Below, one piece after another: positions 15,825 through 42,480 of a DNA stretch of 64,000 nt. Numbering within the stretch: the stretch's first letter is position 1; every line of letters begins with the position of its first letter. The notes beneath the pieces were generated by a model. It saw nothing but the letters and a program-made list of their open reading frames with translations, was not told where the DNA came from and searched no databases. Source of the stretch: Arthrobacter sp. CAN_C5 (GTDB lineage: Bacteria; Actinomycetota; Actinomycetes; Actinomycetales; Micrococcaceae). A program made the translations under genes and the position numbers. Location: contig NZ_JAGGMZ010000001.1 of NCBI RefSeq assembly GCF_017875735.1, positions 1,550,001-1,614,000 of the forward strand, given 5' to 3'.

Positions 15825-16403
15825 ATGAGTCGAATCATCGCCGGAGCCGCTGGAGGCATACCGTTATTCAGTGTCCCGGGTACAGCAACACGGCCCACTA
15901 CTGACCGAGTCAAAGAGGCATTGTTCTCGCGTCTCGACGCCTACGAGGTCATCGCCGATGCAAGGGTGCTCGACCTTTTTGCTGGCTCAGGCTCCCTGGG
16001 CGTGGAAAGCGCCAGCCGGGGAGCGAAGGTCGTTGACCTGGTGGAGTCGGCCGACAAGGCAGCAGCAGTCAGCCGATCCAATGCTGATCTGGTTAACAAG
16101 ACCCTCAAACATCAGACAGTGCGGGTCCACCATCTCAAGGTGGAAACCTATCTTGATCGCGTGACCCCCGAGGACCAGTGGGATCTGGTCCTCATGGATC
16201 CTCCCTATCCAGTGGAAAACGAATCGCTGACCACTCTTCTTGCCACGCTGGTTCCGCATCTGGCCGAGGGTGCAGTGGTCGTTCTCGAACGTTCTTCGCG
16301 CTCGCAGGAGCCAAACTGGCCGGTCGGTCTGGAACGCTTCGCTGAGAAGAAGTACGGCGAAACTAAACTGTGGTTCGCCGAACCAACAGCGCCTGCATCG
16401 TAG
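15825..16403 (+). CDS. rsmD: 16S rRNA (guanine-966-N2)-methyltransferase
   Basis: RsmD methylates G966 of 16S rRNA using SAM on assembled 30S particles. The 192 residues have typical length: MSRIIAGAAGG and TRPTTDRVKEALFSRL at the N-terminus, SAM-binding VLDLFAGSGSLGVE, and catalytic motif IV DPPYPVE. In most actinobacteria rsmD is followed directly by coaD. Here 11.5 kb of other genes separate them, which marks an insertion hotspot between two conserved genes. Confidence 0.92.
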   Translation: MSRIIAGAAGGIPLFSVPGTATRPTTDRVKEALFSRLDAYEVIADARVLDLFAGSGSLGVESASRGAKVVDLVESADKAAAVSRSNADLVNKTLKHQTVRVHHLKVETYLDRVTPEDQWDLVLMDPPYPVENESLTTLLATLVPHLAEGAVVVLERSSRSQEPNWPVGLERFAEKKYGETKLWFAEPTAPAS

Positions 16404-16494
16404 ATGTGGGACTCGTTTCCTCCAGGGAAGCCAATTGATGTGCCCAGACCAAACGAGGGAACTGCCAAGAGAGTAATGCCTGGCTAGATTAAGT

Positions 16495-16578
16495 CACCTG
16501 ATCAACACCATTGGTCAGCCGGCCAACACCATATGTCAGCCGACCAACACCATCAGTCATCTGATCAACACCATCGGT
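16495..16578. repeat. 21-bp tandem repeat, 4 units
   Basis: Four 21-bp units of the general form CAsCyGrnCAACACCATnnGT, the first at 16495-16515. It directly abuts the 9-bp array at 16579. The two arrays fill much of the gap between rsmD and the convergent kinase gene. Confidence 0.85.
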
Positions 16579-16641
16579 CTGCCTGATCTGCCTGATCTGC
16601 CTGATCTGCCTGATCGGCCTGACCGGCCTGACCGGCCTGAC
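16579..16641. repeat. 9-bp tandem repeat, 7 units
   Basis: Four copies of CTGCCTGAT followed by three of CGGCCTGAC. The phase matches the end of the 21-bp array exactly, so one may have grown from the other. A minus-strand frame across it would encode (QAD)n/(QAG)n, but it has no ribosome-binding site and no conserved context, so it is treated as non-coding. Confidence 0.85.
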
Positions 16642-16721: not shown

Positions 16722-17984
16722 CTAGGCCGCAGCTGTTTCTGCGAGTTTGATCTCGAGGCCTTCAAACCACTGGTGTGCGAGCGCCCGATACTGAGGTCTG
16801 AACGCATACAGGCACGCTAGTCGAAGCCTTGTCGCCGCAGCATAGGCTTCCAACCGTTGATCGGACACCCCGATAGCGTCTGCCGCGGTGAGAACGGCCT
16901 GTTTCGCCGTTTGCGCCGCAGCAGCAGAATAGACACCCTGTGCTCGGCGAAAATCGACGTGCACCAGGAGATTCGCCAGGTCGAGCGCTGGCTCAGCGAC
17001 AGCCACCGTGTCGCAGTCGATCAACCCGACGACGCGCGAATCCGGATTGAACAACACCTGCTTGTCGTGGAGATCACGATGCGACAACACTGCCTGCTGC
17101 GGCACACCTGAAATCAGCAGCCGAGCCACCTGCGCCGACGCCCGTTGGAGCCGGGCGGGTGCAACAGGCAACGCCTCGAACTCCTGCACTTGGTTGACCC
17201 ACCGGGCCACGGTGCGACACTCATCGCGCGCCGTATGGGCGGGTAGAGCAACACTGCCCTGTCCGACACTGCTCTGTCCGATGCTGCTCTGTCCGACGCT
17301 TCCTTGTCCGGCACTGCCCGGTTCAACCCTGGCCTGGGCAACCGCCAGCCGGGGCCACCGCTGGGCCCACTGCTGCCACGCCGTCTCCCAGGTGCCAGCC
17401 CCGTCCCAGGTGCTAGTTTCGGCCGGGTTGCCAATCCCGGCGGAGGTGTCAGCCCCGCCGTCATGTCCGGGTCCGTCCGAAGGCGCGTCCCCGTCTCCTG
17501 AGCTAGCACCGTCCGCATGCCTGCCTGCGGTCGACCCTCGCCCGAGCTCGTGCAAACTGGTGCCGTGCACCGCCGTCAACGTGACACTGTCCGGATGCTG
17601 CACCACGACGTCGGGCACCACGATCCCTGACCGATTCGCCAACGAGCGCATCAACCGGTGGGCTACTGCCACCCCCTCGGCCTTTCCGGGAGCCAGCAGC
17701 TTGGTGAATCCAGCATCATCGCGGACCACTGCGCGCCGCTTGTACCGGTGGACCAGCAACTGACCCAGCGCCGCAGCACCGGGAAGACCAGACAGCACCG
17801 GGTCTTCAGCAAACGGGGATAAACGCACCACTCCGTCAGCCTCGATGGTTCCAGCCCTGATCTGGCCACCATCGGTGTCCATCGCCTCAAAGGTGAGTCG
17901 ACCACCGTCACGCGGCCATGCCCGATGGACGTTCAGCTGCCTGCCAGCACGATCCGTCAGCGTCGCAGGAATTGTCGTCACCAC
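16722..17984 (-). CDS. APH-fold phosphotransferase (kinase), last gene of the glycoconjugate operon
   Basis: A 420-residue protein with the aminoglycoside-phosphotransferase/choline-kinase fold. The Brenner motif LSHRDLHDKQVLF lies near residue 305 (catalytic Asp), and the metal-binding GLIDCDT near 322. An Asp/Gly/Ser-rich insert (about residues 150-200) and an in-frame 15-bp repeat (GQGSV/GQSSI) separate the N- and C-lobes. It overlaps the upstream kinase gene by 7 bp. Such kinases phosphorylate small hydroxyl acceptors, often sugars. In this operon a sugar or glycolipid intermediate is more likely than an antibiotic. Confidence 0.8.
   Translation of the reverse strand: MVTTIPATLTDRAGRQLNVHRAWPRDGGRLTFEAMDTDGGQIRAGTIEADGVVRLSPFAEDPVLSGLPGAAALGQLLVHRYKRRAVVRDDAGFTKLLAPGKAEGVAVAHRLMRSLANRSGIVVPDVVVQHPDSVTLTAVHGTSLHELGRGSTAGRHADGASSGDGDAPSDGPGHDGGADTSAGIGNPAETSTWDGAGTWETAWQQWAQRWPRLAVAQARVEPGSAGQGSVGQSSIGQSSVGQGSVALPAHTARDECRTVARWVNQVQEFEALPVAPARLQRASAQVARLLISGVPQQAVLSHRDLHDKQVLFNPDSRVVGLIDCDTVAVAEPALDLANLLVHVDFRRAQGVYSAAAAQTAKQAVLTAADAIGVSDQRLEAYAAATRLRLACLYAFRPQYRALAHQWFEGLEIKLAETAAA
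17259..17318. repeat. in-frame 15-bp tandem repeat inside the kinase gene, 4 units
   Basis: The units CTGTCCGACACTGCT, CTGTCCGATGCTGCT, CTGTCCGACGCTTCC and TTGTCCGGCACTGCC encode five-residue repeats on the minus strand (GQGSV, GQSSI, GQSSV, GQGSA). Unit gain or loss would keep the reading frame. Confidence 0.85.
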
Positions 17985-19408
17985 AGGATGTTCTCCATCA
18001 GGTCTAATTGGTTCACCATGTCTTGCCGCCAGGTGGGGGAACAGGATCGAAAAGGCTCATTCAGGCGGTTGAGCAGATGAAAGATTGTCCACCCCAGGAC
18101 CTCTGTCTCAGTGGCGCCCGTCGGGCCGGCGCTGTAGCCGTCCAGCATGGCCGCCGTGCGGGGAAGCGCCAACACATCGGTGTCTCTCACCAGCGGCATA
18201 CTGTGCAGGATCTCGACGGCGGCAAAGCTGCCCAGATCGGAGGCACCTGCACCATAGGTACACCGCTCCAGATCCGTCAGCCGGATGTCGTTACCATCTA
18301 CCAGCACCTGGTCGGCAGAAAAGTCACCGTGAATGAGCGCTGCCCGGCCCGGACGCCGCAACAGCGGTTCCAGTCCGACACGAAGCCGCTCCAGCCGGTC
18401 GGTAATCCCGGGAAGCAGTGACGATGTCTCCCGCGCCAGTTTGATCAGTGACCCGGCAGGCGCCCGCCACCGGTGTGTGTCAAAGGCTGGGGGCTGCTGA
18501 TGAAGCAACGCCAACGCCATGCCCGCCGCATAGGACGCGGCAGCCGCATCGGCCCCGGCCCCGGCAGTATCCCTGAGATCCGCAGCTCCCAGCTGAGAGG
18601 ACTGGTTGCTGGTACCCACGGTGCTGAGGTCACCAGACCCGAACCACGTGAAGTACTGCACATGACTCGAAGTCGGCAGCCCCGACCGGTCGACTGTCTC
18701 CAATACCGGGACACCTCGGGACGCGAGCCTCGCCAACAGCTCGCCATCCGCGTGTGGGGTCGACGCACCGAGCTTGCACACCAGACGTTCACCCCGATGG
18801 CGAAGCGCAAACACCACCCTGCGCTGCGGGTTGTAGTTGAGCACCTCTACCGAGCGGTCAACAAAGATCCAGCCGAACCCGTCACGCCGAAACGGCCGCA
18901 TGGGCCGATACAGTCGGTGATCCAGTTCGATGGGCCCTGACACCAGGCTGTGGTCCGGGTAGTCCGGCAACGCGACATGCTGGACTTCCAGCCCACTGCC
19001 CACCGACCGGCTAAACGTTTTTTCAAGCTTTGCTGCAGCATCAGGACTGTAGGTAGCAAGCCAGCCTATCCCGCCACCGGCTTCCCGAATTCTTGCCACA
19101 GCGGACGTACCGGGTTTGTGCCGCAGCCGGTCAGCCCTCACCGGACGGCCCAGCAACCCGCTGAGCCGGTCGCTGTCGAAAAACTCTTCAAGACCCGGCA
19201 GCGTCGGATCAACGGCCGCCGTCGGATCGATAACTGTCATAGGATCAATCATCGCCGCTCGATCAACAGCCGACGTCGGATTGACAGACAGTGTCGGATC
19301 ACCAGCCGCCGAAGAATCAACAGCCGACGAAGAATCAACAACCGCCGAAGACTCACCAGCTGTCGTCGACTCAACCGTTACCGATGGCCGGACAGCTGTG
19401 GACCTCAT
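17978..19408 (-). CDS. APH-fold phosphotransferase (kinase)
   Basis: A 476-residue protein. The catalytic lobe carries LIHGDFSADQVLV near residue 358 (Brenner motif with the catalytic Asp) and the metal site RLTDLERC near 378, as in aminoglycoside/homoserine-kinase-type enzymes. The first ~70 residues are a low-complexity Ser/Ala/Asp/Pro repeat (VDSSSAVDSSAAGDPT), encoded by degenerate ~18-21-bp DNA repeats. The natural start may therefore be downstream, near PGLEEFFDSDRL. It overlaps the ABC gene by 4 bp and the next kinase by 7 bp. It is only distantly like its neighbour, so the pair is not a recent duplication. Confidence 0.8.
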   Translation of the reverse strand: MRSTAVRPSVTVESTTAGESSAVVDSSSAVDSSAAGDPTLSVNPTSAVDRAAMIDPMTVIDPTAAVDPTLPGLEEFFDSDRLSGLLGRPVRADRLRHKPGTSAVARIREAGGGIGWLATYSPDAAAKLEKTFSRSVGSGLEVQHVALPDYPDHSLVSGPIELDHRLYRPMRPFRRDGFGWIFVDRSVEVLNYNPQRRVVFALRHRGERLVCKLGASTPHADGELLARLASRGVPVLETVDRSGLPTSSHVQYFTWFGSGDLSTVGTSNQSSQLGAADLRDTAGAGADAAAASYAAGMALALLHQQPPAFDTHRWRAPAGSLIKLARETSSLLPGITDRLERLRVGLEPLLRRPGRAALIHGDFSADQVLVDGNDIRLTDLERCTYGAGASDLGSFAAVEILHSMPLVRDTDVLALPRTAAMLDGYSAGPTGATETEVLGWTIFHLLNRLNEPFRSCSPTWRQDMVNQLDLMENILW

Positions 19409-21318
19409 GCCCGGCCTCCAGCCGTCTTTTCGGCGAGCTGCGCCTCATCGGCCGACTGCTGTTGACGAACCCAGGTGGCGAACATCGGATGGGTCATCAG
19501 TTCAGCGGGCGTCCCATCCAGAAGGATCTGCCCATCCTGCAGCCACACCACCCGGTCATGCGTGAGCGCTACGGACGCCTCATGGGTGATCGTGATGGTG
19601 GTGCGTCCTTGCGTCAGGGTGGCCAGACCAGCAAGGACTTCGGCCCGGGAAGCCTGATCCAACCCGGTCGTCACCTCATCGAGGATCACCACCTGCGAAT
19701 CACGAAGCAACGCCCGGGCAATGGTGATCCGCTGCCGCTGCCCACCGGACAGGGTCCCACCGCGCTCGCCGACCAGGGTGTCATACCCGTCCTCGAATCC
19801 GGTGATGAACGTATGGGCATTTGCCAGCACCGCCGCCCGCTCCACCTCGGCGTCGGTGGCATCAGCCCGGCCATAACGGATGTTCTCCCGGATGGTGCCC
19901 GTAAACAGCACCGCATCCTGCAGTACCAGGCTGATATTCGACCGCAGCGACTCGAGCGTCACCGTCCGCAGATCGTGCCCATCCACGTGCGCGGTTCCCG
20001 ACACCGGATCCATCATGCGCACCATCAGCGACACCAGGGTGGACTTGCCCGATCCTGACGGCCCCACAATTGCTGTCTTGCGCCCACCCACCAGCGCCAG
20101 GTCCAGGTTTTTCAGGACCGGATGCCCGTCACCATAGGCAGCGGTCATGTTGCGGAACTCCACATCGCCCCACACCTTGCCCAGCGATACGGCGTTCGGG
20201 GCGTCAACAATGTCCACTCGTTCGTCCAGGAGGTCGGCTACCCGCTCGCCCGACGCCGTCGCGCGGGCAATCCGCCCCGTGTACTTGGCCAGGTCCCGCA
20301 GCGGCTTCATGGAGGTTTTCAGGTACATCAGAAACAGCACCAGATCGCCGGGAGTCATGGCCCCCTGCACCACCCTCCACCCGCCGCCAGCCAGCACGAC
20401 GGCGGTGGCGACGCCGACAATGACGTCGGTGCGACGCTCCAACGCCGCAGCCAGGCGCCTGGACTGGACTCCGTCCTTGAGGGTCTTCTGGTTACTGCTG
20501 CCAAACCGATCGGAGAGGGTCTTTTCGAGGCCGTAGGTCTGCACCACCCTGATAGCACCCAGGCTCTCCTGGGCGGTGTTGGCAAGCGAACCTTCGCCTT
20601 TCCGGGTCCTGCGCGCCGCGACGGTGATCTTGCCGGTGCTGACCCTCGACAGCAGCAGGAAACTGGCACAGGCAATGACCACCACCAGGGCGAGCAGCGG
20701 ATCAAGCCAGAACATCACCCCGCCCATCACCACCAGCGTGATGCAGTTGGCGATCAGCGGCAGCCCTGCGCTCACCGCCACCTCCTGGAGCCGGCCGACG
20801 TCGCCCACCAACCGCTGGATGGTGTCACCGGTCCGCGCCGACGAGTGATACCGGGTGGACAGGGACTGCACGTGCTCAAAGACCCGGGCCCGCAGCTCCG
20901 TCGCGACCCTTGAGCCGGCCAACGCAAACGCCACGGTGGCGAGGTAGTTGCACAGCGCCCGCATCCCAATGATCACCAGCAGCCCAGCGCCACAGGCGAG
21001 GAGAAGGCCTTCGGTGGCTAACGGGCCGGTTCCGGCCAGATCGGCTCCCAGGCTGCGGGAAATCGCATCCACCACAAACTTGACCGGCCAGGGTTCCAGC
21101 ACCCGGAAGATCACCTCAAAGAGCAACGCCACCACTCCGCCGCTCATCAGCAGGCGGTGTTTGCGCAGATGCGGTTTCGCAATGTTGATGGTCCGCCGGA
21201 GCGGGCTGCGCGCCATTTTGGGTCCGATGGTTGGCGGCGTTGCCGGCTTGGGGGTCCTGACGATTGCCGGCGCCGGGGGAGGAGTAGCAATCACTGGGGG
21301 CGTCTTCTCGATGGTCAT
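19405..21318 (-). CDS. fused ABC exporter (permease-ATPase half transporter)
   Basis: A 637-residue MsbA/lipid-A-exporter-type half transporter. The N-terminal Pro-rich tail is followed by six probable membrane helices (such as LLMSGGVVALLFEVIF, LPLIANCITLVVMGGVMFWL). The ATPase domain has Walker A VGPSGSGKST near residue 420, signature LSGGQRQRI near 524 and Walker B VVILDEV near 543. It is expected to work as a homodimer and move a lipid- or glycan-linked product outwards. The gene overlaps both neighbours by 4 bp, so it is part of one translational unit with the glycosyltransferases and kinases. Confidence 0.88.
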   Translation of the reverse strand: MTIEKTPPVIATPPPAPAIVRTPKPATPPTIGPKMARSPLRRTINIAKPHLRKHRLLMSGGVVALLFEVIFRVLEPWPVKFVVDAISRSLGADLAGTGPLATEGLLLACGAGLLVIIGMRALCNYLATVAFALAGSRVATELRARVFEHVQSLSTRYHSSARTGDTIQRLVGDVGRLQEVAVSAGLPLIANCITLVVMGGVMFWLDPLLALVVVIACASFLLLSRVSTGKITVAARRTRKGEGSLANTAQESLGAIRVVQTYGLEKTLSDRFGSSNQKTLKDGVQSRRLAAALERRTDVIVGVATAVVLAGGGWRVVQGAMTPGDLVLFLMYLKTSMKPLRDLAKYTGRIARATASGERVADLLDERVDIVDAPNAVSLGKVWGDVEFRNMTAAYGDGHPVLKNLDLALVGGRKTAIVGPSGSGKSTLVSLMVRMMDPVSGTAHVDGHDLRTVTLESLRSNISLVLQDAVLFTGTIRENIRYGRADATDAEVERAAVLANAHTFITGFEDGYDTLVGERGGTLSGGQRQRITIARALLRDSQVVILDEVTTGLDQASRAEVLAGLATLTQGRTTITITHEASVALTHDRVVWLQDGQILLDGTPAELMTHPMFATWVRQQQSADEAQLAEKTAGGRA

Positions 21319-22448
21319 GACAGGATCCCCTCGGTGATGCGCCCCAGCACGCCGTCCCAGCTGTGATGATCGTTGGCCAGGCTGCGCGCGGCGTCGGACA
21401 TCGCTGACCTGGCCAGCGGAGCACCGGCAAGGTCATCGATGGCGGCTGCCAGCGCTCCCGGATCCGAGGGAGCCACCAGCAGCCCGGTGACGCCGTCGTC
21501 AATGATTGAGGGCACCTGACCCACCCGCGAGGCCACCACGGGCAGACCGGCGGCACAGTATTCGTAGATTTTCAGCGGAGAAAAGTACTGGTCGCTTGCG
21601 TCCTCCATCTCCGGATACGGTGCCGCCGCCAGGGCACAGCCAGCCAGCGCAGCAGGGATGAGTTCGGGAGTGACGGCGCCCGTGAACTCGACATCCGCGC
21701 CATGCGCGACGGCGAGTTCACGCAGCTGCCCACCCTCCGGACCGTCTCCCACAATCCGGAGAGCCCAGTCGGTTGACGCGACAGCCTTGGCCCGGATCAG
21801 GGTCTCCACCCCGTGCCACGGCTTCAGCGTCCCGACGAACACCACCATCGGGATGCCTGCCGCCTCGGCAGTGGGCCGGATCCGGTCAACGTTGACCCCG
21901 TTTGGCACCACCAGCACCTTCGCCTCATACTCGTTCGCCACCCGCTCCTTCACCCAGGCGGCGACCGGTTCTGAGACGCACACGGTCCTGGACGCTGCCG
22001 CAACCTGGCGCTGCAGCGCCGTGAGCGCTCTCTCTTCGTCGACGAGAGACCGGTGGATACGCTGCTCATCGATCAGCGGGGCATTCACCTCCAGGAACCC
22101 TGGGATGGCCAGCGCTGACGCGACGCGGGCCAGGGCGTCGCTGAAGAGGGAATACCGCTCGTAGACCGCCGTCGCGCCGTCGGCGATGGCACGCGCCGCC
22201 AACTCGGCCGCAGCGGCTGCCTGTGCCTGTTCGCGGGCGGCACCGTCGCCCTTGGGGATGCGGTGAACCACCACCGGAACGTCGGCAAGGTCCGCTGGGA
22301 TGTCGGTTCCCGGCCGGGTGCAGTACACAGTGACCTCGGCGCCGAGGGACCGCCAGCTGCGGATGATCTCCTGCACGTGCACCGAGGCACCCTTCGAGCC
22401 GAATACCGGCACCCCGGGGTCAACGCAGAGATAGGCAAGACGAATCAT
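21315..22448 (-). CDS. glycosyltransferase family 4-type
   Basis: A 377-residue GT-B enzyme. The N-terminal acceptor domain starts IRLAYLCVDPGVPVFGSKGA. The C-terminal nucleotide-sugar domain has VVFVGTLKPWHGVETLIRA and the EX7E-type donor site YFSPLKIYEYCAAGLPVVAS. It would add a sugar to a growing glycan or lipid on the cytosolic face. It overlaps both the upstream GT and the downstream ABC gene by 4 bp. Donor and acceptor are unknown. Confidence 0.85.
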   Translation of the reverse strand: MIRLAYLCVDPGVPVFGSKGASVHVQEIIRSWRSLGAEVTVYCTRPGTDIPADLADVPVVVHRIPKGDGAAREQAQAAAAAELAARAIADGATAVYERYSLFSDALARVASALAIPGFLEVNAPLIDEQRIHRSLVDEERALTALQRQVAAASRTVCVSEPVAAWVKERVANEYEAKVLVVPNGVNVDRIRPTAEAAGIPMVVFVGTLKPWHGVETLIRAKAVASTDWALRIVGDGPEGGQLRELAVAHGADVEFTGAVTPELIPAALAGCALAAAPYPEMEDASDQYFSPLKIYEYCAAGLPVVASRVGQVPSIIDDGVTGLLVAPSDPGALAAAIDDLAGAPLARSAMSDAARSLANDHHSWDGVLGRITEGILS

Positions 22449-23743
22449 GAGTAGACCACCGCTTCCTCGATCTGGTGGACCGGACGCAGGCCGGCTTCGA
22501 GTTCCTGCAACCTGACGGACTGTCGGTGCGAATCAAAGAACTGGTCAATCACCCGGCGCGCGGCGAGTGCCACTGCCTGCCGATCGAAGTCCGCTGACCC
22601 CGCCCGCTGGAGTGCATCAACCAGGTCGCCGAGCACGCCGGAACGGATCAGGATTCCGGTCTGGACGCCGTCGCCGGTGGGCAGACCGGGGTCCAGTGCG
22701 CTGCCACCGTTGGAAATCACCTCGGGGATCCCCGTGACATCACTGGCGATGCAGGGCACGCCCATCGCCATTGCTTCGAGCAGAACGGTGGGCAGACCAT
22801 CGGCATTGCCATCCGTGCCCACCAGGCAGGGGGCGGCGAACACATCGGCCCACCGCAACAGCTCTATCACTTCGGCCTGGGTCCGCGGTCCCAGCAGAGT
22901 GACGGTTGCCTCCAGCCCGTGGCTGGCAATCTGGTCAGACAACTGGTCGTGAAGCTCTCCGCCACCGGCAATACGGACGTCGAGGACAACGCCGCGGTGG
23001 ACCAGCTCAGCGACAGCCTTGATGAGCTGGTTGAAACCCTTCTTTTCCACCAGCCGGCCGACGGCGGCAACCCGCAGCACCGGTCCGGGCGCGGTGGGAC
23101 TGGTGAAAGGAAACCGTTCCAGCTCCAGACCGTTGTAAATCCGATGGACCCGTCCCAGGTGTTCGGGAAACAACCCGCCCAGATAATTGAGGTTGAAGTC
23201 GCTCACCGTCACCACATGGTGCGCGGCACCGATCAGTCCGCGGAGCACCTCCGGGTCCACCTCTTCGTGGAAAATGTCCTTGGCGTGCGCAGTAAACGAG
23301 AACGGAATGCCCGTCAGCTCCGCCGCGACCTTCGCCGTGCGGGCGGCGATTGACCCGAAGTGGGCATGCACGTGGGTGATGCCCCGCTGACACAGCAGCA
23401 TCGCAAGCTCAACACCCTGGTGAACCTCCACCGCGTCCATGGCGGCCAGCTCAGGGAGCAGCCGGGCGAACCGTTCAGCAAAGTCCGGAATCACGTCCCC
23501 GGCGGTTGCCATGATGGCCCAGCCATCAGCCAGTTTGGCTGGTTTCGACACATAGGTGACGGGAGCCTGGACCCGGGCCAGCTCGGGATGGAACCGGGGG
23601 TCGATCGGAGGCCTGAGCGAAAAGATCTCCAGCTCGTCCCCGGCGGCTTCCCGCGCGAGGATCTCGGTGACAATGAAGGTTTCGGAGAACCGGGGATAGA
23701 TCTTCAGGATGTACCCGGTGCGGGAACCACTAGACGGCTGCAA
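22445..23743 (-). CDS. glycosyltransferase family 4-type
   Basis: A GT-B glycosyltransferase: N-terminal GYILKIYPRFSETFIVTEIL, HAHFGSIAARTAKVA, FTAHAKDIF, donor domain VAAVGRLVEKKGFNQLIKA, and GLPTVLLEAMAMGVPCIASD. The start is uncertain. TTG 23743, with GGAAG 4 bp ahead, gives a 14-bp overlap with the upstream gene; ATG 23773 has no ribosome-binding site. It has the look of enzymes acting on lipid-linked oligosaccharides (WcaL/AmsK type). It is distinct in sequence from the following GT4. Confidence 0.83.
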   Translation of the reverse strand: MQPSSGSRTGYILKIYPRFSETFIVTEILAREAAGDELEIFSLRPPIDPRFHPELARVQAPVTYVSKPAKLADGWAIMATAGDVIPDFAERFARLLPELAAMDAVEVHQGVELAMLLCQRGITHVHAHFGSIAARTAKVAAELTGIPFSFTAHAKDIFHEEVDPEVLRGLIGAAHHVVTVSDFNLNYLGGLFPEHLGRVHRIYNGLELERFPFTSPTAPGPVLRVAAVGRLVEKKGFNQLIKAVAELVHRGVVLDVRIAGGGELHDQLSDQIASHGLEATVTLLGPRTQAEVIELLRWADVFAAPCLVGTDGNADGLPTVLLEAMAMGVPCIASDVTGIPEVISNGGSALDPGLPTGDGVQTGILIRSGVLGDLVDALQRAGSADFDRQAVALAARRVIDQFFDSHRQSVRLQELEAGLRPVHQIEEAVVYS

Positions 23744-25070
23744 GGTTCTTCCAATCGCTGCGAAGGTCGGCATGGGGGGTTGGCACCGTGAAGCCGAGCA
23801 GTTCGGCGGCAAACTTACCCACGGTGTGCAGACCATTCAGGTCCACGTTGTGCCGTGGCGACGGCGTCCCGACCACGGTGTCGAACCAGTCGGTGAGCAC
23901 CTCAGGTGTGAACCGGTCAGGGTGGCACATGTCCATCAGCTCGTGGCGGGCCAGGGATTCGGCGCGGATCAGTTGCTCCCGCCGGGGATGAACACGGGGG
24001 ACCACCAGCGCGGGGGTGGTGGTGCTCATGATCTCGCACACCGAGTTGTAGCCGCCCATCGACACAATCGCCGAGGCTTCCCTCATCTCGGCGAGGCCGT
24101 CACGCACCATCGAAATGACCCGGGTGCCGGGCGCCGCCGACTTTTCGATCACAACGCGGTCCTCCTTGGGCATCTGGGGACCGGTGACAATCAGGTGTTC
24201 ATAGCCGTGGGGGACTGTCGCCTGGGCTGCAGCCAGCAGCATCGCACGACCATCGGATCCGCCGCCGGCCATGGTCAGCACGTATGGCTTTGCTGTGGAG
24301 CCGGTGCGACGCCTCGACTGACGGCCGGTTGCCAGATACCCGGTATAGCGGACCATCGAGGCGAGCTTGCCGGGAATTTCACCGGATGCCACCGGGTCAT
24401 GAATGACGGGATCCCCGTAGACCCACAGCTCATCGAAATAGCCACGCAGCTTGTCCAGGTTCCCCAGCGCGTTCCATTCCCGCCGTGCCACCTGGGGGCT
24501 GTCGAGGACTTCCCGGAGGCCGAGGACCACTTTGCACCCGGGCCGTGCCTTCTTCAGGTCCGACAGGGCCGAGATCAGTTCCCGGTCCACACCGAAGGCG
24601 TGCCGGTCCACGACCACCAGATGAGGCCGAAACTCGGAGAGGACGGCTTCCATGATCTGCGACCGAAGCCGGATGAGTTTGCTCTGGTTAATCGTCAGGT
24701 TGCGGGGGACGTAGCCGTCGCTGCCCTTGGAAATACCCGGGAGCACCACCCAGTCCCAGCCATCCGGACTGTCAAAGCGTGTTGCCTGGGACTCGCCGGT
24801 GACCAGCAGCCCGGTGACCTTGCGGTTGGCCAGCCCGGGGAGGTTGGCGGCCAGAGAGTGGGCGAGAGCCAGATTCCGCCGGGTATGACCCAGGCCCTGG
24901 GAGTCGTGTGAGTACAGCACCACCCGGAGCTCTTTCAACTGATTTCCCTCTCCAGGAAGCCCTCGAGCGTCGAGTTCCTGTGCCGCAACGTCCGCTGAAG
25001 CGACGTCGAGTGCAGGAACTTCCTGAGAGAAATGCCCTAGCGGCGAGTGCGTTTCCATGACGGTGACCAA
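23730..25070 (-). CDS. MurG-like predicted glycosyltransferase (COG4671-type), first gene of the operon
   Basis: A 446-residue protein. It has the GT-B start LRVVLYSHDSQGLGHTRRNL (Gly-rich acceptor loop), a middle region HLVVVDRHAFGVDRELISA, and the donor-binding end AIVSMGGYNSVCEIMSTTTP and HPRREQLIRAESLA, analogous to the MurG/UGT nucleotide-sugar site. It resembles the predicted glycosyltransferases of COG4671, whose substrate is not known. ATG 25070 or ATG 25058 could be the start. It opens a six-gene overlapping operon ending at 16722. Its upstream region carries repeated ATGAGA/CTCATCGA motifs. Confidence 0.75.
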   Translation of the reverse strand: MVTVMETHSPLGHFSQEVPALDVASADVAAQELDARGLPGEGNQLKELRVVLYSHDSQGLGHTRRNLALAHSLAANLPGLANRKVTGLLVTGESQATRFDSPDGWDWVVLPGISKGSDGYVPRNLTINQSKLIRLRSQIMEAVLSEFRPHLVVVDRHAFGVDRELISALSDLKKARPGCKVVLGLREVLDSPQVARREWNALGNLDKLRGYFDELWVYGDPVIHDPVASGEIPGKLASMVRYTGYLATGRQSRRRTGSTAKPYVLTMAGGGSDGRAMLLAAAQATVPHGYEHLIVTGPQMPKEDRVVIEKSAAPGTRVISMVRDGLAEMREASAIVSMGGYNSVCEIMSTTTPALVVPRVHPRREQLIRAESLARHELMDMCHPDRFTPEVLTDWFDTVVGTPSPRHNVDLNGLHTVGKFAAELLGFTVPTPHADLRSDWKNLAAV

Positions 25071-25361: not shown

Positions 25362-25652
25362 CTACTGTGGCTGGTAGGACAGGCAATCGGCGGTGTCAGC
25401 GCCGCTGCCGATCTTCACATCGGTCTTGCCGCACATGAGGTGGCTATTGAACGTGCACTCGGTCCGCTGGCAGGCACCCACGTGGGCCAGGACCATGGGT
25501 AGTCCGCCGGTCGCTGAGGTGTCGATGAAGGTGGAGCATGACGCGTGGTCACGGCTACCACCGACCGTAATCGCGAAGGCGGTGCAGCCGTCATGGTTAA
25601 AGGAGCAGGAATGGACACTGCAATCGGAAACGCTTGCAACTTCGGTTGTCAT
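25362..25652 (-). CDS. DUF1540-domain cysteine-rich small protein
   Basis: A 96-residue protein with two DUF1540-like modules rich in Cys: CSVHSCSFNHDGCTAFAI then CSTFID, and CQRTECTFNSHLMCGKTDV then DCLSYQ. The regular Cys spacing suggests metal binding. There is no signal peptide. The start is fixed by a perfect AGGAGG four bases before ATG. It is monocistronic, with an AT-rich upstream region and a hairpin after the stop. DUF1540 proteins have no assigned role. Confidence 0.8.
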   Translation of the reverse strand: MTTEVASVSDCSVHSCSFNHDGCTAFAITVGGSRDHASCSTFIDTSATGGLPMVLAHVGACQRTECTFNSHLMCGKTDVKIGSGADTADCLSYQPQ

Positions 25653-25833: not shown

Positions 25834-26646
25834 CTACTGCCGTGCCGAACAAAAGGCAGCGAACTCAGGTCCGGTCACCACGACTCCCGGATGCGGGCCG
25901 GCTGCCACCAACGACGGCGACCAGGTGGCGGGCCAGGCTGAACCGGTCCCCACCAGCACAATGTTCCCTGCCATCCGCCCACTGATCATCCCTGCATCAG
26001 CCAGCACCGCGACGTCGTCGGCGGCGGCACGCAACCTCCGCGCCTGGGCACGCGCAAACGTCAACGGCGGATCATCGCCCACATTTACCAGGACCACGCC
26101 GCCTGGAGCGACTGCCGCCCTGAGCGAATCATAGAAGGCTTCATCAGTCAGATGGGCCGGCGCATCAGCACCAGCAAATACGTCCAGCACCACTGCGTCA
26201 AAGGAGCCGGGCTCACAACGCTCCAGGGCCGCGCGGGCGTCATCGATCACCATCGAACACCGGGTGCCCTCCGGCAGGGGTAGATGCTCCAGTACAAAGT
26301 CCAGCAGCTCCCGTTCAAGTTCTACAGCTGTCTGCTCGGAACCTGGTCGCCTGGCCTGGACATACCGCGCCAGGGTCAGCGCACCCGCACCCAGGTGCAG
26401 CACCCGGATGGGCTCGCCCGCCGGCTTGAAGATATCCAGCACATTAGCGATCCGGCGCAAATACTCATAAAAGACGTTCCCGGGATTCCGCAGATTCACA
26501 TGGGATTGTTGTGCGCCACCAATACTGAGAATGAATGCCCCCTCGGTAAATGCATCCTCATCAATTTCGGCAAGCTCGCCAATTCCGGCCAGTTGCAGGG
26601 TAGGCACCGAGCCGTCCTCGTCGGCAGCAAGCTCAACACCCTTCAT
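25834..26646 (-). CDS. spermidine-synthase-like SAM-dependent protein
   Basis: A 270-residue protein with the Rossmann fold of the spermidine synthase superfamily: SHVNLRNPGNVFYEYLRRIA, glycine-rich VLHLGAGALTLARYV, acidic loop TAVELERELLDFV, IDDARAALE and VVLDVFAGADAP. It lacks the polyamine-specific motifs I would expect in true SpeE and may be a general methyl- or aminopropyltransferase-like protein. Its ATG overlaps the stop of the upstream aminotransferase by 4 bp, so the two are coupled. Confidence 0.75.
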   Translation of the reverse strand: MKGVELAADEDGSVPTLQLAGIGELAEIDEDAFTEGAFILSIGGAQQSHVNLRNPGNVFYEYLRRIANVLDIFKPAGEPIRVLHLGAGALTLARYVQARRPGSEQTAVELERELLDFVLEHLPLPEGTRCSMVIDDARAALERCEPGSFDAVVLDVFAGADAPAHLTDEAFYDSLRAAVAPGGVVLVNVGDDPPLTFARAQARRLRAAADDVAVLADAGMISGRMAGNIVLVGTGSAWPATWSPSLVAAGPHPGVVVTGPEFAAFCSARQ

Positions 26647-27881
26647 AGCCGGGCGCTCAACGTAGCCAGCCGGTCCGCGGCTTCCTGCAGGACCTCGGTT
26701 TTTTTGCAGAACGCGAATCTCAGGAGCGAACTGGCGCGGGCTGCGCCGTCGGGATGGCAGAACACCGCCACAGGGATGGCGGCCACCCCCACCAGCTCCG
26801 GCAACTGTCGTGCCAGCGCGGTGGCGTCGCTGATTCCCAGCGGCGCGGTATCCACGTTCACAAAGTAGGTCCCCTGCGGGGAGAAGACATCAAACCCTGC
26901 GGCTTTCAACCCTGCGCTGAGGATGTCCCGTTTCGTCTGCAGGGTGGCCGCGGTCGCCTGGAAGAACCCGTCATCCAGGCCCAGGCCGTGGGCGACGGCG
27001 CTCTGGAACGGCGTGCCTGAGCTGTAGGTAAGGAAGGTCTTGACGGTCCGCACCGCCGAAATGAGCTCCTGCGGCCCGGTGATCCAACCGATCTTCCACC
27101 CGGTCACCGAGAAGGTTTTGCCGGCCGAGGAGATGGTCAGGGTTCGGTCCATGGCTCCCGGCAGCGAGGCGATGGGCAGATGCGCCACACCGAAGGTGAG
27201 GTGCTCGTAGACCTCATCGGTGACGATCACGGCGTCATGCTTCACCGCGAGGTCCACAATCTTCTGCAGCACCTCCCGGGTGAACACGGTTCCCGTCGGG
27301 TTGTGGGGGTTGTTGAGCAGGATAATCCGGGTCGAGCGGGAGACTGCCCGCTCCAGCTCGTCGAGATCGGGCTGGAAATCGGGCGCCGACAGGGCCACGG
27401 TGGTGTGGGTGGCCCCGCTCAGGCCGATGATCGCGCCATAGGAGTCGTAGAATGGTTCAAAGGTAAGAACCTCGTCGCCGGGCCCGGCCAGGGCCAGCAC
27501 CGCCGACGCAATCCCCTCGGTTGCGCCGGTACTGACGATCGTCTCGGTGTGGGGGTCGGGCGTCAGGCCGTAGAACCGTTCCTGATGAGCCGCGATCGCC
27601 TCCCGGAGCACTGGCAGACCCTGGCCGGGCGCATACTGGTTGGCCCCTGCGGAAATCGCTGCCCGGGCTGCCTCAAGGATTTCGGCTGGCCCGTCCTCGT
27701 CAGGGAATCCCTGCCCCAGGTTGATGGCGCCGTGCTGCATTGCCAACATGGTGATTTCCTCGAAAATCGTGACACCGAGACGCCCATCGGAGGCCAGAAG
27801 ATTAGCGCCCGACGCCGTCCGCTGCCATGGCGTAGGGGTTGAGGCTGTGCCGGTCACCAGCGAAGAAGTAGTTGAACTCAT
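26643..27881 (-). CDS. PLP-dependent class I/II aminotransferase
   Basis: A 412-residue fold-type I aminotransferase with AINLGQGFPDEDGP, NQYAPGQGLPVLREAI, NNPHNPTGTV, DEVYEHLTF and the PLP-lysine site SAGKTFSVTGWKIGW. It is close to kynurenine/methionine aminotransferases and actinobacterial DapC-like enzymes; the exact amino donor is not decidable. Start ATG 27881 has GAGGG directly upstream; a longer frame would run into coaD. It is divergent from coaD with an ~80-bp shared promoter space. Confidence 0.87.
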   Translation of the reverse strand: MSSTTSSLVTGTASTPTPWQRTASGANLLASDGRLGVTIFEEITMLAMQHGAINLGQGFPDEDGPAEILEAARAAISAGANQYAPGQGLPVLREAIAAHQERFYGLTPDPHTETIVSTGATEGIASAVLALAGPGDEVLTFEPFYDSYGAIIGLSGATHTTVALSAPDFQPDLDELERAVSRSTRIILLNNPHNPTGTVFTREVLQKIVDLAVKHDAVIVTDEVYEHLTFGVAHLPIASLPGAMDRTLTISSAGKTFSVTGWKIGWITGPQELISAVRTVKTFLTYSSGTPFQSAVAHGLGLDDGFFQATAATLQTKRDILSAGLKAAGFDVFSPQGTYFVNVDTAPLGISDATALARQLPELVGVAAIPVAVFCHPDGAARASSLLRFAFCKKTEVLQEAADRLATLSARL

Positions 27882-27960
27882 GCCCTCAAGTATTGCTGTT
27901 TTTTCGGACCTGCCGATTGGACCAGGTGGACAGCGGCGCGCTTCACTGTAGATTCGAACC

Positions 27961-28437
27961 ATGCGCCGCGCTGTCTGCCCCGGATCCTTTGACCCCATCC
28001 ACAACGGTCATGTGGAGGTCATTGCCCGAGCCGCGAGCCTTTTCGATGAGGTGATTGTTGCGGTATCGAATAATCCAGCCAAGAATTACCGGTTTGATCT
28101 TGACGAACGACTCGACAGCGCCCGCGAGACGCTTCAGTACCTGCGGGGTGTTTCAGTTCTCTCGATGGGGGACGGACTGCTCGCCGACTTTTGCCGGTCC
28201 CATGGCGCCAACCTGATCGTCAAGGGGCTGCGCTCCAGCCAGGACTTTGACTATGAGCTGCCGATGGCCACCATGAACCGTCAGCTCACCGGCGTCGAGA
28301 CTGTGTTCATTCCAGCGGAAAACAGCTACACCCACCTCTCATCGACGCTCCTCAAAGAGGTTGCTTCGTTGGGCGGCGACATATCTCCCTTTGTGCCCAG
28401 GGGTGTGCTGAAACGGCTCAATCGGCCATCGACCTGA
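27961..28437 (+). CDS. coaD: pantetheine-phosphate adenylyltransferase
   Basis: CoaD adenylates 4'-phosphopantetheine to dephospho-CoA in coenzyme A synthesis. The 158 residues have the nucleotidyltransferase HxGH motif in CPGSFDPIHNGHVEVI, the PPAT sequences VVAVSNNPAKN-like (IVAVSNNPAKNYRF) and KGLRSSQDFDYELPMATMNR, and the C-terminal SSTLLKEVASLGGD. Length is normal. Confidence 0.95.
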   Translation: MRRAVCPGSFDPIHNGHVEVIARAASLFDEVIVAVSNNPAKNYRFDLDERLDSARETLQYLRGVSVLSMGDGLLADFCRSHGANLIVKGLRSSQDFDYELPMATMNRQLTGVETVFIPAENSYTHLSSTLLKEVASLGGDISPFVPRGVLKRLNRPST

Positions 28438-42267: not shown

Positions 42268-42474
42268 CAGCGCGCAGGGTTCCGTTCAACTCAGCGTCCT
42301 CCCGACAGATTGCCCAATTCTGCCGATGTCGTGAGGTCCGTCCGCACACATCCGGCAGAAGCGGAGGAACCAATAGTGGCCGTCGATCGACGGCCTTGGG
42401 GTGAAGACTCGATTTCGAGTCCGGGTGGCTCCCATCCGAATCCGACAGCTAACTTCGTAGGCATCGGGAGAGGC
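42268..42474 (+). promoter_or_regulatory. c-di-AMP riboswitch (ydaO/yuaA class)
   Basis: About 205 nt between promoter and the NlpC/P60 start. It has the class landmarks: CGCAGGGTTCCG near the 5' end paired with GGAGGAACC further on, GGGGTGAAGAC, GGGTGGCTCCCATCCGAAT-CC, and the hallmark 3' segment CAGCTAACTTCGTAGGC at 42446-42462. In actinobacteria this riboswitch commonly precedes cell-wall hydrolase genes and turns them down when c-di-AMP is high. The stop-rich sequence and its location directly before the ATG support a leader RNA. Confidence 0.85.
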
Positions 42475-42480
42475 AAGATC

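Follow-up and report, generated by a model that had tools for sequence, protein, structure and literature searches.

A six-gene operon of Arthrobacter sp. CAN_C5, conserved across phyla, that may assemble, phosphorylate and export a glycan

What might a bacterium make with three glycosyltransferases, a fused ABC exporter and two APH-fold kinases encoded in a single run of genes? The question arises from a stretch of 64,000 nucleotides of Arthrobacter sp. CAN_C5 (the window), which lies at 1.55-1.61 Mb in a genome made up of one contig of 3.86 Mb. According to the list of open reading frames (ORFs) and to Pfam, six consecutive minus-strand ORFs at 16722-25070 code for a COG4671-type glycosyltransferase, two further glycosyltransferases (GTa and GTb), an ABC exporter and the kinases K1 and K2. 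An earlier note on this DNA had described the run as a six-gene operon, and this holds: all six ORFs are present and their Pfam domains are concordant with it. COG4671 is that note's name for the family of the first gene and serves here as a label only. The answer favored here, with a probability of about one half, is that the six genes form one pathway, in which a glycan would be assembled in the cytoplasm, phosphorylated by K1 and K2, and exported by the ABC protein. The observations behind it are direct ones, namely a conserved gene set, its order, ORFs that hold both kinases, the co-occurrence of the genes, and the genes found beside them.

Recurrence of the gene set

The earlier note had proposed a search for the same neighborhood in other genomes as a check, with scattered genes counting against its proposal, and the genes do lie together in 67 of the 80 relatives fetched. 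These 80 are the best by COG4671 similarity among at least 584 confirmed matches from a COG4671-profile scan of named genomes, a choice biased toward near relatives, and certain loci are one site fetched twice (e.g., L063/L080 and L065/L152). They belong to Actinomycetota (39), Cyanobacteriota (14), Pseudomonadota (9), Planctomycetota (5), Gemmatimonadota (4), a Desulfobacterota-like group (3), and Chloroflexota (2), with one each from Nitrospirota, Deinococcota, Acidobacteriota, and a bin labelled Euryarchaeota. Hidden Markov models for COG4671, GTa, GTb, and ABC, trained on loci L047-L079, find the order COG4671-GTa-GTb-ABC in those 67 loci; the remaining 13 are shuffled, cut, or different. 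Both kinases accompany the ordered genes in 49 of the 67, K2 only in 10, K1 only in 2 (contig ends), and neither in 6 (5 of them contig ends). Loci with all six genes span Actinomycetota, Cyanobacteriota, Pseudomonadota, Chloroflexota, Planctomycetota, and others, and since the same order is met again in several phyla, chance would not account for the set. Both kinase motifs stand in one ORF at 14 of the 80 loci; seven of these ORFs were scanned, and Pfam recognizes two APH stretches in 6. The conserved order, these kinase pairs, and the co-occurrence of the genes make it probable that the products act together, as the note had supposed.

Co-occurrence can be followed in 296 Actinomycetota genomes, 17 of which hold a full COG4671 match after the removal of two partial ones (58.7 and 68.9 bits, in genomes G074 and G075). 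K1, at 115 bits or more, is present in 16 of the 17 genomes with COG4671 versus 3 of the 279 without (Fisher p 1.5e-22), and K2, with a threshold of 150 bits, in 11 of 17 versus 0 of 279 (Fisher p 3.9e-16). Both p-values are indicative only, since the thresholds were chosen after the scores were known, the genomes are related, some of them supplied alignment rows, and a few have K1 on a different contig from COG4671; for this last reason the comparison speaks to co-occurrence and not to adjacency. The lone genome with COG4671 and no K1 (G028) has a contig that stops soon after the ABC gene.

In Escherichia coli, the six genes occur in 18 of 5426 genomes, with at least 99% identity and on a plasmid every time. 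On plasmid pN96-1 (L163, 7509-17687), they are followed by an alginate-export barrel gene and a nucleotide-sugar dehydrogenase gene. In a tree built from four proteins of 35 selected loci, 13 Actinomycetota form one group (support 1.0) and the E. coli plasmid joins Mixta (1.0); three genomes of the window's phylum (labelled f18) fall among other phyla, and several deep nodes are weak. A few relatives, from Rhizobium, Ruegeria, and Azospirillum, have COG4671 and glycosyltransferase genes without listed kinases, so the kinases are frequent rather than universal partners. In the Rhizobium variant, the glycosyltransferases are followed by an ABC protein of 905 amino acids (aa) and then by a cNMP-binding protein, and an ABC protein near the Azospirillum COG4671 cluster bears a cNMP-binding domain; the regions concerned are L160, 12094-19168, and L162, 564-3626. 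The Ruegeria and Azospirillum variants include a histidine phosphatase and a deacetylase. An ABC match in Sinorhizobium resembled the exporter but was set aside, since its surroundings are a different polysaccharide region.

At two loci (L144 and L155), COG4671 is matched twice and the ABC gene is surrounded by at least two K1-like kinases. A phage or viral origin of the set was also considered and rejected, since none of the 8 pattern matches in viral contigs codes for a relative and phage records gave no confirmed match.

The enzymes and the exporter

The first enzyme is related to MurG, distantly and in the manner of the GT28 type. Its family profile matches MurG (1f0k) across the C-terminal domain with an E value of 2e-11, and the MurG model TIGR01133 gives the protein 15.7 bits against a cut-off of 250.25. 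Among NCBIfam models, the nearest to GTa are EpsE and WcaL, each far under its cut-off.

The note's claim of a fused MsbA-type exporter is borne out by ABC_membrane and ABC_tran domains, both above their Pfam cut-offs, in one protein of 637 aa. This identifies it as an ABCB-type (type IV) exporter, and its relatives in the Protein Data Bank (PDB) are of the ABCB type as well. The MsbA model TIGR02203 scores 371.3 bits, under its cut-off of 602, and the glucan-exporter model of NCBIfam scores 313 bits (E 3.6e-93), under its cut-off of 733. No ABC-2 type membrane protein, the kind to which Wzm and KpsM belong, is matched in the six proteins at E values up to 0.01; the exporter is of the PF00664 type.

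Both kinases exceed the PF01636 cut-off of 23.2 bits and have two Asp residues that are invariant in 35 alignment rows each (D301 and D318 in K1, numbered from ORF residue 62; D304 and D323 in K2), presumably the catalytic Asp and the Mg-binding Asp. The first ~60 residues of K1 are of low complexity and in part an 18-bp tandem repeat, and the matches of most K1 relatives start past this part, near residue 57-66. The K1 and K2 models were refined in rounds on the fetched loci, using a motif filter that admitted only Gln or His at the catalytic position, and the conservation of Gln is therefore taken from an unfiltered count alone. This gives 160 Gln, 7 His, and 1 Asn, plus five other letters in matches read as lying outside the catalytic loop; 11 of 165 ORFs yield no match. 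In one congener, K1 is split by an in-frame stop (L054, 10068-11407, genome G300).

Among PDB sequences, the K2 family profile matches kinases, and the K1 profile matches YihE best (E 7e-10), with maltokinase close behind (4e-9). The comparison of structures covered K1. Its closest structure by Z is LxmK, a class V lanthipeptide kinase, and its top Foldseek match is maltokinase, which is absent from the 50 VIA-align matches listed for K1, where the part before about residue 98 is barely compared. By loop motif and fold alone, K1 resembles maltokinase and the actinobacterial glucosamine kinase, which have an APH fold and a catalytic loop H.D....Q (PMC6520443). The loop Gln was tried as a mark of sugar kinases and failed, because LxmK also has it (HCDLRFDQ). 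The LxmK model NF038156 gives K1 32 bits versus a cut-off of 315 and has no listed match to K2, and, unlike LxmK, K1 carries an extra N-lobe-like module. As the structure nearest to K1 is nevertheless that of a peptide kinase, a peptide is one conceivable substrate.

The likely product and its rivals

The genes that adjoin the operon in relatives were surveyed at 98 loci (97 distinct). A nucleotide-sugar dehydrogenase gene lies near the operon in 17 of them; 12 of these genes follow it directly and share its strand, at 11 distinct sites, since L065 and L152 are the same. All five dehydrogenases scanned exceed the cut-off of the general dehydrogenase family, and none reaches an equivalog cut-off; the best equivalog is the UDP-glucose dehydrogenase TuaD for the two from Actinomycetota, the UDP-glucose dehydrogenase PRK15057 for the ones from Aggregatibacter and from the E. 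coli plasmid, and a UDP-ManNAc dehydrogenase for that of Rhizobium. A barrel of the alginate-export family is encoded directly downstream in 5 of the 98 loci (all five that have one) and an OprB-family barrel in 6 (of seven that have one, the seventh, L114, being rearranged), with families assigned by Pfam on one representative each and by BLAST clustering for the remainder. Single relatives have an epimerase, sulfotransferase, or HlyD adaptor gene beside the operon. A 37-kb plasmid of Ca. Manganitrophus (L165) combines an annotated alginate lyase, two APH kinases, a radical SAM protein, and a histidine phosphatase with glycosyltransferase, ABC, and alginate-export genes. The earlier note had expected a product that is flipped or exported, and these dehydrogenases and outer-membrane barrels, which adjoin the operon in a minority of relatives, agree with export and suggest that the product is probably a glycan. 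One OprB-type protein exceeds the cut-off of an iron uptake porin model, which weakens that part of the argument.

In the pathway as proposed, the three GT-B glycosyltransferases would assemble a soluble glycan in the cytoplasm; the sugars, the chain length, the three glycosylations that the note had supposed, and the step itself are predictions. UDP-glucuronate is probably among the donors, giving a glucuronate-containing glycan. K1 and K2 would act as a pair to phosphorylate it. The phosphate could be a constituent of the glycan, cap it, or tag it for export, which would then be the task of the MsbA-type exporter. In Gram-negative copies, an outer-membrane barrel may bring it to the surface. 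One could go further and see here a distinct class of glycan secretion that crosses phyla, in which phosphate placed by the kinase pair on a glucuronate glycan is the tag for the MsbA-type exporter and Gram-negatives have recruited two unrelated barrel families, but this is a tentative idea that is more doubtful than the pathway. If the proposal is true, one route of glycan export, for whose product no description was found, is common to bacteria from Arthrobacter to cyanobacteria and E. coli strains with the plasmid, and some proteins annotated as "aminoglycoside phosphotransferase" are glycan-pathway enzymes and not resistance genes. The titles and opening lines of abstracts in the open-licence literature searched yielded no description of the six-gene set and no characterized cluster matching it, the kind of match that the earlier note had said would speak against its proposal.

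That an ABC-dependent pathway can include a kinase acting on the glycan is known from WbdD of E. coli O9a; that system likewise has cytoplasmic assembly by glycosyltransferases, a pathway kinase that caps the chain, and an ABC exporter (PMC3482155). The present set differs in its fused ABC_membrane/MsbA-type exporter, where O9a has Wzm/Wzt, and in its two APH-fold kinases; a methyltransferase and an initiating transferase are absent from the six proteins. ChvA/NdvA, an ABCB-type exporter of a soluble glucan made by one large synthase, is similar in exporter type and through the sub-cut-off match of the glucan-exporter model. That cyclic beta-glucan system is not known to have kinases, whereas three glycosyltransferases and two kinases are found here. 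Alginate secretion is like some relatives in having an alginate-export-family barrel and a uronate-donor enzyme near the operon, but the six proteins contain no synthase domain of the Alg8/Alg44 type.

A rather unlikely alternative is that the glycosyltransferases make a glycolipid or lipid-linked oligosaccharide, which the MsbA-type protein would flip in the way of PglK and MsbA and whose head group the kinases would alter. The exporter does match the MsbA and PglK models of NCBIfam, though under cut-off, and MurG, the nearest solved relative of the first enzyme, takes a lipid-linked acceptor. However, no initiating transferase is found in the six proteins, and a search of the genome for the PF02397 kind gives a sole match at 3.017 Mb. 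The outer-membrane barrels directly after the operon in 11 of the 98 loci also fit a water-soluble product better than a lipid that is flipped. It is less likely still that the product is a glycosylated secondary metabolite or peptide. In that case K1 and K2, like LxmK, would phosphorylate a peptide or other small molecule, which the glycosyltransferases would decorate and the ABC protein would export. The resemblance of K1 to LxmK would suit such a product, but a HopA1-type lyase is absent from the six proteins and the four flanking ones, to which the search was confined, and the six genes overlap, so that a precursor peptide could not be encoded between them. Broad conservation together with dehydrogenases and barrels is also judged unlike a typical metabolite cluster.

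Two further readings concern the kinases. YihE, which the K1 profile matches best among PDB sequences, is a protein kinase of the stress response, and this could point to K1 and K2 as regulators that control the glycan pathway without modifying the glycan. This is improbable, as YihE has Asn where K1 and K2 have the loop Gln, and the likely regulators are two-component genes, found near about 30 loci, although these may merely reflect how common such genes are. The least probable reading, and one that was rejected on context and loop motif, is that the kinases provide self-protection or antibiotic resistance beside a drug exporter and unrelated glycosyltransferases. The APH fold would allow it, and drug pumps do occur among ABCB-type exporters. 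However, the gene order is conserved, and the kinase pairs occur in single ORFs. Also, the corramycin kinase has Asn in the loop, as do two other APH proteins of the genome (the genome has 10 other APH matches; among the 6 fetched, only these 2 fitted the search pattern). Curated APH resistance models give K2 20.9 bits for APH_3p against a cut-off of 205, and K1 no match at E values up to 0.01. The kinases travel with the glycosyltransferases and the exporter and thus look biosynthetic, as the note had argued.

Layout and genomic setting

Table 1. Features of the operon and its flanks (positions in the window)
Feature	Coordinates	Strand	Basis and remarks
First gene, MurG/GT28-like GT-B glycosyltransferase ("COG4671"), 446 aa	23730..25070	-	Glyco_tran_28_C 25.3 bits (cut-off 22)
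GTa, GT4 glycosyltransferase	22445..23836	-	Pfam; start uncertain (ATG 23836, ATG 23773 or TTG 23743)
GTb, second GT4 glycosyltransferase, 377 aa	21315..22448	-	Pfam; 4-bp overlap with GTa
ABC exporter, MsbA/ABCB type, fused membrane and ATPase parts, 637 aa	19405..21318	-	ABC_membrane 130.6 bits, ABC_tran 108.6 bits
K1, APH-fold kinase	17978..19408	-	APH 40.9 bits (cut-off 23.2); catalytic loop HGDFSADQ
K2, second APH-fold kinase, 420 aa	16722..17984	-	APH 44.4 bits (cut-off 23.2); catalytic loop HRDLHDKQ
rsmD, flanking	15825..16403	+	Cons_hypoth95 145 bits
DUF1540 gene, Cys-rich, upstream neighbor	25362..25652	-	DUF1540 32.1 bits
Spermidine-synthase-like gene, flanking	25834..26646	-	Spermine_synth 29.8 bits
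Class I/II aminotransferase, flanking	26643..28004	-	Aminotran_1_2 222 bits
coaD, flanking	27961..28437	+	CTP_transf_like 73 bits

Overlaps of 4-14 bp had been claimed for the six genes. This is right for GTb/ABC and ABC/K1 (4 bp each, as for GTa/GTb) and for K1/K2 (7 bp), but at the COG4671/GTa junction 14 bp requires the TTG start at 23743; the ATG at 23773 gives 44 bp and that at 23836 gives 107 bp.

The operon was also said to lie between rsmD and coaD, which is loosely correct, as the aminotransferase, spermidine-synthase-like, and DUF1540 genes also stand on the coaD side. The added statement that rsmD and coaD are usually adjacent fails at 8 operon-free coaD sites of congeners (6 genomes without a K1 match and 2 with the operon elsewhere): coaD-AspAT-SpeE is kept at all 8, and rsmD is 2.2-4.3 kb further on in 7. 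Some congeners have the operon between coaD-AspAT-SpeE and rsmD, and others have neither coaD nor rsmD close by. Counting the genome of the window, K1 was found in 17 of 35 from the genus. With the operon patchy in the genus and variable in position, its location is unlikely to be part of its function. The DUF1540 gene occurs at 11 of the scanned loci L047-L159 (9 distinct sites), congeners without exception; it was therefore dropped as a component and is probably not part of the pathway.

No riboswitch at the operon reaches its gathering score, the window holds no tRNA, and promoter-like sites number 1 versus 1.1 expected from shuffles. Tandem repeats with 21-, 9-, 15-, and 18-bp units occur at 16493-16640, 17251-17319, and 19298-19360, that is, in the gap from K2 to rsmD (extending to the K2 side), within K2, and in the 5' extension of K1. 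Elsewhere in the window, a c-di-AMP riboswitch (RF00379) is found at 42311-42477 on the plus strand, with 71.2 bits against a gathering score of 38.
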